Shown here piece after piece: positions 3,069 through 23,929 of a stretch of 23,929 bases of DNA. The stretch covers positions 1-23,929 of the forward strand of contig JAADJD010000060.1 of NCBI GenBank assembly GCA_013150955.1, written 5' to 3'. This stretch comes from Calditrichota bacterium. GTDB lineage: Bacteria > Calditrichota > Calditrichia > RBG-13-44-9 > J042. Position 1 is the first letter of the stretch. Every line of letters starts with the position of its first letter. The notes under the pieces were generated by a model. It worked only from the letters and a program-made list of their open reading frames with translations, made no database searches and was not told the origin of the DNA. The translations under genes were made by a program, and so were the position numbers.

Positions 3069-3235
3069 AAACTCAGATTATGGAATAGCCTACGAATGAC
3101 ACGAATTAACACAAATAAAACCAATAAAATACATTGGATTGTGCCAGGATGAAAAATGCGTTCGCTGGTTTACTCGCGATTTTTAAGATATTTTTTAGAT
3201 ACATTCGCGTGATTCGCGGTTTATTGCAGTAAAGC
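3069..3235 (-). repeat. Dispersed palindrome-armed intergenic repeat, copy A
   Basis: A 167 bp copy of a family found five times in this window. On the minus strand it reads AATAAACCGCGAATCACGCG at the left arm, then a conserved core (AATCGCGAGTAAACC, then TTTTCATCC, then CAATCCAATG), then ATTCGTGTCATTCGTAGG and AATCTGAGTTTA at the right end. The two arms are imperfect inverted repeats. It starts about 25 bp after the stop codon of the MBL-fold gene and is in the same orientation as that gene. No reading frame is evident. Confidence 0.9.
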
Positions 3236-5267: not shown

Positions 5268-5317
5268 ACCACTCCGGTTTCCTAAATACGCCACATGCAG
5301 CCGTAGTCGAACGGTTC

Positions 5318-5489
5318 AACCCAAATTATGCCCTAAACCACGAATCACACGAATGAATTCGAAAAAAAATCAACAAAATAGCGAATATATCCGGGAAAAC
5401 ATTTTCATCCAGATAGAATCCAGTGCATTTTATTATTTTTATTGGTGTTCATTCGTGTAATTCGAAGGCGATTTTTAATCTGAGTTCAA
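5318..5489 (+). repeat. Dispersed palindrome-armed intergenic repeat, copy B
   Basis: A 172 bp copy. The left end is CCCAAATTATGC with arm AAACCACGAATCACACGAAT, the core includes ATTTTCATCCAGATAGAATC, the right arm is GTTCATTCGTGTAATTCG, and the outer end TAATCTGAGTTCAA matches the outer end of copy A. It lies between the convergent lipoprotein and S9 peptidase genes, in the orientation of the lipoprotein gene. With the hairpin at 5243 it accounts for most of this 403-bp gap. Confidence 0.9.
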
Positions 5490-13408: not shown

Positions 13409-13807
13409 ATGGAGACATTAGGAGAGAGGATTCAGTTTTTACTCAAGAAGAATGGCCTGCGGGCACGCGATCTGGCAAAAGGGGTGAATTTGCCGGAAAC
13501 CACCATCTCGAACATCATCAACAACAAGTTCGAACCCGGCGTCAATAAAATTAAGAAAATCGCTGAATTTTTTGATGTCGACCTTCACTGGTTAATCACC
13601 GGTCACATTTACCTGGGAAAAACCAAACGCTTGTTCGATCCCGGGGAACCCACCGAATCCGGAGCAGAGGACGATCCCCTGCAGGATCTGCTCCCCTACT
13701 CCGATCGGTTCCTGGAAATGGTGAAAAAATTAGATCATGAGTATCAGGAGATCATTTTCAATATTTTGCGTTCATTGAATGAATTGATTTATCGGTTTCA
13801 TCGATAA
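13409..13807 (+). CDS. XRE-family helix-turn-helix regulator 1
   Basis: A 132-residue DNA-binding protein. Residues ~5-65 form a Cro/C1-type HTH, with ARDLAKGVNLPETTISNII as the helix-turn-helix and the typical closing EPGVNKIKKIAEFFDVDLHW. Residues ~66-100 are a polar linker and ~105-130 an amphipathic helix (LDHEYQEIIFNILRSLNEL), perhaps for dimerisation. It is a paralogue of the protein at 19917-20303: the HTH parts are about half identical by eye and the lengths agree (132 and 128). There is no peptidase or sensor domain. The ATG at 13409 has only a weak ribosome site. It is convergent with the chemoreceptor-like gene, 56 bp away. A CCGGC-AAA-GCCGG hairpin follows the stop (13812-13824). 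Probably controls itself and the adjoining signalling genes. Confidence 0.9.
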   Translation: METLGERIQFLLKKNGLRARDLAKGVNLPETTISNIINNKFEPGVNKIKKIAEFFDVDLHWLITGHIYLGKTKRLFDPGEPTESGAEDDPLQDLLPYSDRFLEMVKKLDHEYQEIIFNILRSLNELIYRFHR

Positions 13808-19916: not shown

Positions 19917-20303
19917 ATGAAAACCATCGGCAATCGATTACGGTATCTTTTAAATAAACACAACATGCGGGCCGTCGACTTGTCCCGCCAGATCCGTCTC
20001 CCCCTGTCGACCATCAGCAATATTTTGAATGATCGCTATGAACCGGGGGTATACAAGATCCAGCAACTGGCTCGATTTTTTAATGTGGATCTGAACTGGC
20101 TGATCACCGGGGAAACCACGGTCGAAAAACCCCGCACGGAACCCACTTACATTATTGAGGATCGGGATCGCATCATTAGCTCCTTCGAGGAGCTGGGGCA
20201 GGCCATTGCCAGCGAAATCAAAAAGCTGCCCACCGAATTGCAATCGCATTACTGGAACCTGTTGATTCATTTTTATCAGATTTTGATTAAAATCAATCAA
20301 TAG
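19917..20303 (+). CDS. XRE-family helix-turn-helix regulator 2
   Basis: A 128-residue paralogue of the regulator at 13409-13807. The HTH domain spans ~5-65, with the recognition region SRQIRLPLSTISNILNDRYE and the shared closing VDLNWLITGE. A polar linker follows, then a C-terminal amphipathic helix (LQSHYWNLLIHFYQILIKI). The residues most different from the paralogue inside the HTH (QIRLPLS against GVNLPET) suggest related but not identical sites. The ATG at 19917 has AAAGGA at 7-nt spacing. It is divergent from the histidine kinase gene, from which 643 bp of AT-rich, structured DNA separates it. Likely a local regulator of the signalling block. A dispersed repeat (20426) follows. Confidence 0.9.
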   Translation: MKTIGNRLRYLLNKHNMRAVDLSRQIRLPLSTISNILNDRYEPGVYKIQQLARFFNVDLNWLITGETTVEKPRTEPTYIIEDRDRIISSFEELGQAIASEIKKLPTELQSHYWNLLIHFYQILIKINQ

Positions 20304-20425: not shown

Positions 20426-20594
20426 AATCCAGATTATGCATTCGCCTACGAATGACACGAATGAACACTAATAAAACCAATAAAATACTTTGGATTGTGC
20501 CTGGATGAAAATGTGTTCCGGGGTTTATTCGCGATTTTGTAGATATTTTTTGGTTTCATTCGTGTGATTCGCGGTTTAATGCATTATTTGGGTT
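20426..20594 (-). repeat. Dispersed palindrome-armed intergenic repeat, copy C
   Basis: A 169 bp copy, reading on the minus strand from AATGCATTAAACCGCGAATC through ATCGCGAATAAACCCC, CACATTTTCATCCAGG and CAATCC to ATTCGTGTCATTCGTAGGCG and TGCATAATCTGGATT. It is one of the cleanest copies. It sits between the second XRE gene and the homoserine dehydrogenase gene, both on the plus strand, so this copy is opposite in orientation to its neighbours. Confidence 0.92.
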
Positions 20595-20674
20595 ATTTGG
20601 GTTTAAAGAGCCAGAATGCAATTCGTTTGCCCTATTCCCGTTCAGGGGGACCCTCCCATTCCCACAATGGACTA

Positions 20675-20703
20675 TTGACATCCTGCCGTCCGGGGGATAA
20701 ATT
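20675..20703 (+). promoter_or_regulatory. Candidate promoter of the homoserine dehydrogenase gene
   Basis: A perfect TTGACA (20675-20680) is 17 nt from TAAATT (20698-20703), about 55 nt upstream of the start codon. Confidence 0.5.
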
Positions 20704-20757
20704 CTTTCGATCCGTAACCGCAGGAAAACGATCGCAACAAACATAATCGGATGCACC

Positions 20758-21804
20758 ATGACCACCAGGCTTCTGATTGTTGGATTTGGGAATGTGGGAC
20801 GGGGATTGGCGCGTTTGCTGATTTCGCGCTCGCAGTGGTTGAAAACCGCGGAACAGCTGGACTGTCGAGTCATTAGTATTACCGATCTGCGCTACGGCAC
20901 CATTGTTCAGCCGGAGGGGATTTCACTGGAACCCGTACTTCAGCATATTGAACAGGGCACGCCCTTCTCCACCCAACCTCAACCGACCGAAAACCTGATT
21001 CGCCAGCTGGACTACGACGTCCTGATCGAGCTGACCCCCACCCGGCTGGAGACGGGCGAACCGGCCCACAGCTACATCCGGATGGCCCTGGAGCGCGGAC
21101 GTCACGTGATTACTACCAACAAAGGCCCGGTGGCCCATCATCTTCTGGAACTGGAGCGACTGGCCCGGGAAAAAGGCGTGCACTTCCGTTATGAGGGAAC
21201 GGTTCTGGCGGGCACTCCGTTGATCAACCTGATCCGCAATCACCTGGCGGGAGCAACCATTCATAAAATCGAAGGCATTGTGAATGGCACCTGTAATTAC
21301 ATTTTAACCCGCATGGCCGCAGGAATGGATTACACTGCTGCGCTGAAGGACGCCCAGGAAAAAGGCTATGCCGAGGCCGATCCCACTGCCGATGTGGAAG
21401 CCTGGGATGCCGTGGCCAAAGTGATGATCCTGGCACAGGTGGCTTTTGGACAAAAACTTCCCCTGCATTCCATATCCCGTCAGGGAATTTCCGGATTGAC
21501 GGTGGCTGACATTCAGCAGGCTCTTCGGGAAGGTCACCACTGGCGCCTGATTGCCACCCTGCAACAGCAAGACGGAATCCTGGAGGCGTCTGTAGCCCCC
21601 CAGAAAATTCCTCAGGATCATCCTTTTGCCTCTGTTACCGGTGCAACCAATGCCATCGCCATTTACACCGACTGTCTGTCACGGATCACCATTACCGGCC
21701 CGGGAGCCGGTCCCGTGGAGACGGGATTTGCGGTATTGAACGATCTCATCCACATCCACCGGAAGATCACGCGAACCCCCAATGGCAATCATAATCCCAG
21801 ATAA
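20758..21804 (+). CDS. hom: Homoserine dehydrogenase
   Basis: A 348-residue cytoplasmic enzyme reducing aspartate semialdehyde to homoserine, the branch towards threonine and methionine. The nucleotide-binding motif is GFGNVG (9-14). TTNKGP (Lys122) and the family signature NGTCNYILTRM (176-186) are present, as is the catalytic-region pattern GYAEADPTADVEAWDAVAK (203-221; Glu205, Asp212 and Lys221 are likely functional residues). It lacks a C-terminal ACT domain, as in short archaeal-type homoserine dehydrogenases, so allosteric control by threonine is not expected through ACT. The ribosome site is weak (CGGAT). No other threonine pathway gene is adjacent. The last codons and stop (Asn-Pro-Arg-stop) are provided by the left end of dispersed repeat copy D. 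Confidence 0.93.
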   Translation: MTTRLLIVGFGNVGRGLARLLISRSQWLKTAEQLDCRVISITDLRYGTIVQPEGISLEPVLQHIEQGTPFSTQPQPTENLIRQLDYDVLIELTPTRLETGEPAHSYIRMALERGRHVITTNKGPVAHHLLELERLAREKGVHFRYEGTVLAGTPLINLIRNHLAGATIHKIEGIVNGTCNYILTRMAAGMDYTAALKDAQEKGYAEADPTADVEAWDAVAKVMILAQVAFGQKLPLHSISRQGISGLTVADIQQALREGHHWRLIATLQQQDGILEASVAPQKIPQDHPFASVTGATNAIAIYTDCLSRITITGPGAGPVETGFAVLNDLIHIHRKITRTPNGNHNPR

Positions 21805-21983
21805 TGCATTAAACCGCGAATCACGCGAATGGACACAAAAAATATCAATAAAATCACGAATAAACCTCGAAGCGAATTTTCATACAGATCTAAATCAATG
21901 GATTTTATTGTTTTTATTTGTGTTAATATTGTTTTTATTTGTGTTAATTCGTGCAATTTGTGGTCTAAAGCATAATTTGGGAT
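21794..21983 (+). repeat. Dispersed palindrome-armed intergenic repeat, copy D
   Basis: A 190 bp copy starting AATCCCAGATAATGCATT, arm AAACCGCGAATCACGCGAAT, core AAATCACGAATAAACC and TTTTCATACAGAT, right arm TTAATTCGTGCAATTTG, end CATAATTTGGGAT. It is longer than its siblings because of a perfect 21-bp tandem duplication (21907-21927 and 21928-21948). The first bases overlap the 3' end of the homoserine dehydrogenase gene, and its TAA is that gene's stop codon. Confidence 0.9.
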
Positions 21984-22065
21984 AATGCACGCAATCGTGT
22001 ATGTACCGTTCATACCCTGTAAGCGATTGTTTTTAACGCTGAGTATAATCCGCCAGGCGGGCAAA

Positions 22066-22229
22066 AACCCAGATGATGCGTGAAACCGCGAATCAGGTGA
22101 ATTCTTCAAAAAATGTTCATAAAATCGCGAGTAAACTCTGGAACACATTTTCATCCAGATATAATCCAATGGATTATTTTCATTAGTGTTAATTCGTGTC
22201 ATTCGTAGGTTAATGTAAAATCCGGGATT
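22066..22229 (+). repeat. Dispersed palindrome-armed intergenic repeat, copy E
   Basis: A 164 bp copy in the same orientation as copy D, 82 bp downstream of it: AACCCAGATGATGCG, then GAAACCGCGAATCAGG, core AATCGCGAGTAAACTC and ACATTTTCATCCAGATATAA, right arm TTAATTCGTGTCATTCGTAG, end AAATCCGGGATT. Confidence 0.9.
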
Positions 22230-22286
22230 ACTATTTTTGTTCGTGTGAATTTGTGTCATTCGCAGGCAAATGCACAAATTGGGATT
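22230..22286 (+). repeat. Half copy of the dispersed repeat, directly after copy E
   Basis: 57 bp repeating only the right arm of the element (TTCGTGTGAATTTGTGTCAT, then TTCGCAGGCAAATGCA, then AAATTGGGATT). It abuts copy E with no spacer and suggests tandem growth or a deletion within a second element. Confidence 0.8.
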
Positions 22287-23830: not shown

Positions 23831-23852
23831 ACCCGGATTATGCATTAGACCA
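23831..23852 (+). repeat. End fragment of the dispersed repeat
   Basis: ACCCGGATTATGCATTAGAC, 8 bp after the aldehyde dehydrogenase stop codon, matches the left end of copies D and E (CCCAGATAATGCATTAAACC) and then diverges. A truncated copy, in the same orientation as the gene before it. Confidence 0.6.
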
Positions 23853-23871
23853 TTTATAAAAAGTTTCAAAG

Positions 23872-23914
23872 AAAAGAACGTTTTTACCCGTTGCTGGCGC
23901 CGGTTCTTTTTTTT
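23872..23914 (+). terminator. Intrinsic terminator of the aldehyde dehydrogenase gene
   Basis: AAAAGAAC (23872-23879) pairs with GTTCTTTT (23903-23910), with further pairing possible in the GC-rich interior (GGCGCC). The T run continues to 23914, about 50 nt after the stop codon. Confidence 0.75.
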
Positions 23915-23929
23915 GAAGAATCTCCTGGC

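Follow-up and report, generated by a model that had tools for sequence, protein, structure and literature searches.

A palindrome-armed intergenic repeat recurs within the window (the whole 23,929-nt stretch of Calditrichota bacterium DNA that was analysed, contig JAADJD010000060.1), and its design raises the question of whether it is a mobile element, an RNA or a protein-bound site. The repeat belongs to a known kind, the MITEs, of which it is a heavily amplified example; it is not a new RNA. It is very probably a 165-bp gene-less element that was moved in trans by an IS1380-family transposase of its own genome and amplified here.

The family profile, built from the window copies and refined on 92 aligned matches, defined a unit of 165 bp (CCCAAATAATGCATTAAACCGCGAATCACGCGAATGAAACC...GTGTTAATTCGTGTAATTCGTAGGCTAATGCATAATCTGGG), a size too small for a transposase gene. 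The consensus terminal inverted repeats were CCCAAATAATGCATTA and CCCAGATTATGCATTA, and the consensus 3′ end was ATTCGTGTNATTCGTAGGCTAATGCATAATCTGGG-3′. Inside the inverted ends, the left arm carries two CGAAT pentamers 9 nt apart and the right arm two ATTCG pentamers 9 nt apart, as the first-pass annotation had described; a fifth CGAAT pentamer lies within the core. The five copies listed by that annotation were all recovered with the profile, together with a solo right arm. Copy 1 (3073-3230, minus strand; nhmmer, E = 1.5e-42) covers model positions 8-164, with one end eroded. Copy 2 (5320-5484, plus strand; nhmmer, E = 6.7e-43) was matched by the profile at 5320-5482, the last two bases coming from extension, and the sequence TTCAA is found on both sides of it (5315-5319 and 5485-5489). 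Copy 3 (20429-20592, minus strand; nhmmer, E = 3e-52) is the nearest to the consensus among the five. Its end, TTATTTGGG, is duplicated in tandem (9 nt at 20593-20601; both units, 20584-20601), with TTTAA on the left and TTTAA again past the 9-nt end duplication on the right. Copy 4 (21796-21981, plus strand; nhmmer, two joined pieces, E = 4.7e-32 and 2.6e-8) contains a short internal direct duplication and is flanked by ATAAT in the sequence at 21791-21795 and 21982-21986. Copy 5 (22068-22226, plus strand; nhmmer, E = 2.9e-38) has flanking 5-mers that do not match, and the solo right arm (22229-22283, plus strand; model 111-165; nhmmer, E = 2.7e-7) abuts it. A target duplication is visible in two of the window copies (copies 2 and 4), and a third (copy 3) shows one if the 9-nt end duplication is allowed. 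The stop codon of the homoserine dehydrogenase reading frame (20758-21804) lies inside copy 4 (21796-21804), so that the insertion supplies the last residues and the stop; the homoserine dehydrogenase gene of the genus-mate G001 has a different end. The start of another element, which shares the terminus (CCCGGATTATGCATTAGACC...; CCCRGATTATGCAWTARACC) but lacks CGAAT arms, was read from the sequence at 23832-23929 (plus strand); it continues past the contig end. It showed a 92.6% match to contig C8, where its start reads TTAAA followed by CCCAGATTATGCAATAAACC, and it probably represents a further mobile element that relies on these ends.

The repeat was also found far beyond the window. A BLAST search with one copy against its own genome gave E values down to 1e-76 off the query and 739 first-look candidates, and the arm pattern CGAATNACACGAATNAACAC gave 421 matches (reversed control, 0). 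In an unbiased sample of 368 kb (twenty further stretches, each of at most 20 kb, picked regardless of matches), 48 full copies and 114 pieces in total were counted after removal of overlaps, representing approximately 1.3 full copies per 10 kb and 3.4% of all bases. Extrapolated from this sample to the 4.07-Mb genome, there would be approximately 530 full copies and 1,260 pieces. Stretches picked around strong matches had 2.1 full copies per 10 kb, a higher density, as expected from that choice. By a crude gene call that took the longest ORF, 121 of the 135 full copies lay clear of every ORF of at least 100 aa (such ORFs represent 82% of the sample); convergent intergenic gaps were favoured, and divergent gaps (the promoter side) were under-used. 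The median divergence of copies from the consensus was 13%.

Both signs of transposition that had been proposed as a check, target-site duplications and empty sites, were found. Of the 129 full copies, 58 were flanked by an exact 5-bp repeat, whereas 10 would be expected and none of 200 shuffles gave more than 19; flanking repeats of other lengths showed no excess in these copies. The duplicated 5-mers read WTNAW and were mostly TTNAA (TTAAA, TTTAT, ATAAA, TTTAA and others). Nested insertion was frequent, with 31 of 128 inserts lying inside another copy. In 20 nested cases, deletion of the insert and one 5-mer restored an uninterrupted host copy scoring more than 100 bits, and 15 of these 20 had exact duplications; the flanks of nested inserts were joined solely to display the empty site. 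Against the reading of the repeat as a MITE, approximately half of all copies lack an exact duplication, which fits old copies but also recombination.

The presumed mover was found in the same genome. A search returned a single transposase of the IS1380 family, located where contig C18 ends (NCBIfam transpos_IS1380, NF033539, E = 6.5e-65, 219 bits against a cut-off of 180; PF13701, DDE_Tnp_1_4, E = 1e-40). Five left ends and five right ends of the insertion sequence were identified, most of them at contig breaks and most next to TTTAA, TTAAA or ATAAT; this recurrence at contig breaks is a sign of a collapsed multicopy repeat. Left ends read TTTAA followed by CCCAGATTACGCAATAGAACG, and right ends read CTAATGCGTAATCTGGG followed by TTAAA, TTTAA or ATAAT. 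When overlapping pieces from contigs C18 and C12 were joined, the insertion sequence was approximately 1.46 kb long, and the assembled transposase gene was read in two frames (83 aa, then at least 361 aa). Of the 17 outer bases of the insertion sequence, 16 were identical to those at the right end of the MITE (CCCAGATTACGCATTAG against CCCAGATTATGCATTAG), and the target was the same. Among the PF01609 transposase loci of the genome, a family terminus lies at the border of a single one, the IS1380-type locus, which matches PF01609 too. The match is, however, confined to the outer 17 nt, and the arms and core of the MITE are unrelated to the insertion sequence. Judged from the matching ends and target, the C18 transposase is most likely the enzyme that moves the MITE. 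The first-pass annotation, which could not assign the repeat to a named family, had given a match to a catalogued transposon end as grounds for refutation; this was borne out by half, in that the ends match an IS1380-family element of the same genome. On contig C18, the terminus CCCAGATT of the insertion sequence occurs twice in tandem (stretch L074, around 1393-1409). On contig C4, a run of N lies inside a PF01609 transposase gene (stretch L075, about 2742-2827).

The repeat therefore has the features by which a MITE is recognised: it is short (<500 bp), multicopy and gene-less, with inverted ends, target duplications, empty sites and a matching autonomous element. In the mechanism that we propose, a DDE transposase of the IS1380 family, encoded at another place in the genome, would recognise the terminus of approximately 17 nt (CCCARATWATGCATTA) and mobilise the element, which, being gene-less, would rely on enzyme supplied in trans. 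Insertion would take place at 5-bp AT-rich WTNAW sites (mostly TTNAA), with duplication of the 5 bp. Long-lasting spread in the species, mostly intergenic and often into the element itself, would have given rise to the nested and truncated copies, and the CGAAT pentamers may be cis sites helping amplification.

The amplification was absent from the genus-mate. In genome G001 the order of the genes is conserved (HTH gene, homoserine dehydrogenase, aldehyde dehydrogenase; 68-75% identity), and no MITE copies were found in its orthologous gaps, which are shorter than in the genome studied here. Those gaps do not align base by base, the genes being 68-75% identical, and hence they demonstrate absence and not a precise empty site. 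G001 did contain one 307-bp relative, which shares the ends and arms but not the core and is flanked by an exact duplication of ATAAT. Among 385 genomes, the arm motif was found only in the genome studied here (G000, 421) and in G016 (4), G367 (2) and G348 (1). This distribution and the absence from G001 indicate that the amplification belongs to this species or to very close kin. The 33-base core pattern had no match in any other genome, no viral contig matched a shorter core pattern, and a literature search with the motif letters returned nothing.

Related termini were observed in more distant genomes. In G304, from another family of the domain, WTNAW plus CCCAGATTATGCATTAG occurs twice. The one of these sites that was read (L192) lies next to coding sequence that gave IS1380 matches (E = 1e-18 and 2e-17); this IS1380-type coding sequence was 47% identical to the transposase described above over 126 aa. 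Apparent right ends in G304 were rejected, being the left end on the opposite strand. Related elements in G385 had exact 5-bp duplications (TTTAC, 167 bp; ATTAA, 239 bp), and so did a 173-bp element of a Gallionellaceae genome (TTAAA), which has CCCAGATTATCCATTAGG ends but is otherwise quite different. Together, the G304 and Gallionellaceae elements indicate that the terminus goes with the IS1380 type and that the interior varies.

The alternative that survives best retains the MITE as proposed and takes the CGAAT arms for an independent cross-phylum repeat, with a spread of its own, that was captured between IS1380-type ends. When a named collection of genomes was searched with the host's own records left out, CNACGAATNACACGAATNAACACNAATAAAA was found in Aminicenantes, Acidobacteriota, Deltaproteobacteria, Gallionellaceae, Latescibacterota and Zetaproteobacteria, and the shorter motif CGAATNACACGAATNAACAC occurred without IS1380-type termini in Aminicenantes (56, in one genome), Acidobacteriota (23, in one genome), Zetaproteobacteria (5) and others (reversed-pattern control, 0 everywhere). 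These arms were mostly single and had other flanks, their neighbours being similar phased motifs (CCGCGAAG..., CCACAGATTACACTGATT..., CACGGAC...). The motif also lies inside IS1380-type termini with different cores in G000, G001 and G385. The likeness could also come from selection on a protein-binding motif instead of descent, and we consider this alternative possible, although doubtful. A further step, that the arms form a cis module in their own right, bound by a dedicated recognition protein and common to Aminicenantes, Acidobacteriota, Zetaproteobacteria, Gallionellaceae, Latescibacterota and the host's class, and that their capture between IS1380-type ends drove the amplification, is less likely still and is offered as speculation.

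Conservation within the family did not single out the core. The core (85.5%), the arms (89%) and the 17-nt ends (87-89%) were about equally conserved, which contradicts the special conservation of an off-palindrome core from which the first-pass annotation had argued; the conservation of the core is family resemblance. The five CGAAT pentamers, in turn, were 96.7% conserved, as compared with 85.6% elsewhere. A variant present in more than 10 copies was found at 0 of 25 pentamer positions versus 55 of 140 positions elsewhere (Fisher, P = 1.7e-5), in a test in which the aligned copies are related and the positions within a pentamer are not independent. Private changes (in at most three copies) were about equally frequent in pentamers (1.6%) and elsewhere (1.8-1.9%). 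We read the scarcity of shared variants, at an ordinary private rate, as a constraint that would act on the amplifying lineages and not on each resident copy; on these substitution counts, a cis role of the pentamers in amplification is probable.

A rival reading takes the repeat for a conserved RNA, either a structured non-coding RNA or a regulatory hairpin, placed at many loci. Its long inverted repeat and the stable folds of the consensus on both strands (-41 and -51 kcal/mol) speak for such an RNA. Across 49 arm pairs, however, pairing was kept at 0.868 versus 0.866 with shuffled columns, so no covariation was seen, and double changes were coupled as much in off-register columns as in paired ones. 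No Rfam family was matched at the gathering score, and the insertion-site duplications are a further point against an RNA, which is highly improbable. Sub-threshold Rfam matches (plant microRNA models, E = 0.045) were set aside as chance hairpin matches. Of the earlier suggestion of an RNA or a protein-bound site, the RNA part fails, and the protein-bound part holds only in the sense of cis sites for transposition, a likely role for the termini and a possible one for the CGAAT pentamers.

A REP/BIME-type palindrome spread by a RAYT (Y1 transposase), in which a single-strand hairpin is recognised and no target duplication is made, is very unlikely, because the clear 5-bp target duplications, the full-length, double-ended 165-bp unit and the clean nested insertions outweigh the palindromic, intergenic and clustered character of the repeat, its many partial arms and the two Y1_Tnp genes of the genome, which are not flanked by copies (one locus has a partial arm approximately 1.2 kb away, the other none). 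Of the two classes named earlier, MITE or REP/BIME, the former is upheld by the duplications, the nested empty sites and the matching insertion sequence, and the latter is contradicted by the duplications.

The MITE resembles several known systems. IS1380 elements (e.g., ISEcp1/ISEc9) generate 4-5 bp duplications (PMC12116815), and a DDE_Tnp_1_4 transposase of this family is present in the same genome; the MITE differs in being gene-less and in its target, which is strongly WTNAW here versus AGGCA for the cited ISEc9 insertion. Chunjie (Geobacter uraniireducens), Correia, ERIC and TIMEs are likewise short, gene-less, multicopy, mostly intergenic and mobilised in trans, with inverted ends, but have other termini and another presumed mover. 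The copy numbers quoted in a review of bacterial MITEs are 38 full copies for Chunjie and up to 711 for ERIC (PMC10969869), as compared with extrapolated numbers of approximately 530 full copies and 1,260 pieces for the present element. That review does not mention IS1380, and it gives a MITE load of 8-10% in plants, with nothing comparable seen in prokaryotes (PMC10969869). At approximately 3.4% of sampled bases, the load is very heavy for a bacterium and thus allows the spread of a gene-less element in a compact genome to be tested in a natural case. Eukaryotic piggyBac-type elements share a TTAA-like target and termini starting with CCC, and piggyBac trees take IS1380 as outgroup (PMC10813416); their target is the 4-bp TTAA, whereas that of the bacterial element is the 5-bp WTNAW. 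A MITE with a defined target, WTNAW, is in this way linked to the IS1380 family, which is related to piggyBac. The separation of private from shared substitutions is a simple way to tell cis-required from host-selected sites, and the cross-phylum CGAAT arms can now be searched for by others.

Two other features of the window were observed. A long repeat protein with units of approximately 160 bp is encoded on the minus strand at 1-2880; near 980 and 1791 its repeats contain small insertions, of which the one near 1791 appears to be frame-breaking. The contig also encodes two similar small HTH regulators (13409-13807 and 19917-20303; Pfam HTH_19/HTH_3).
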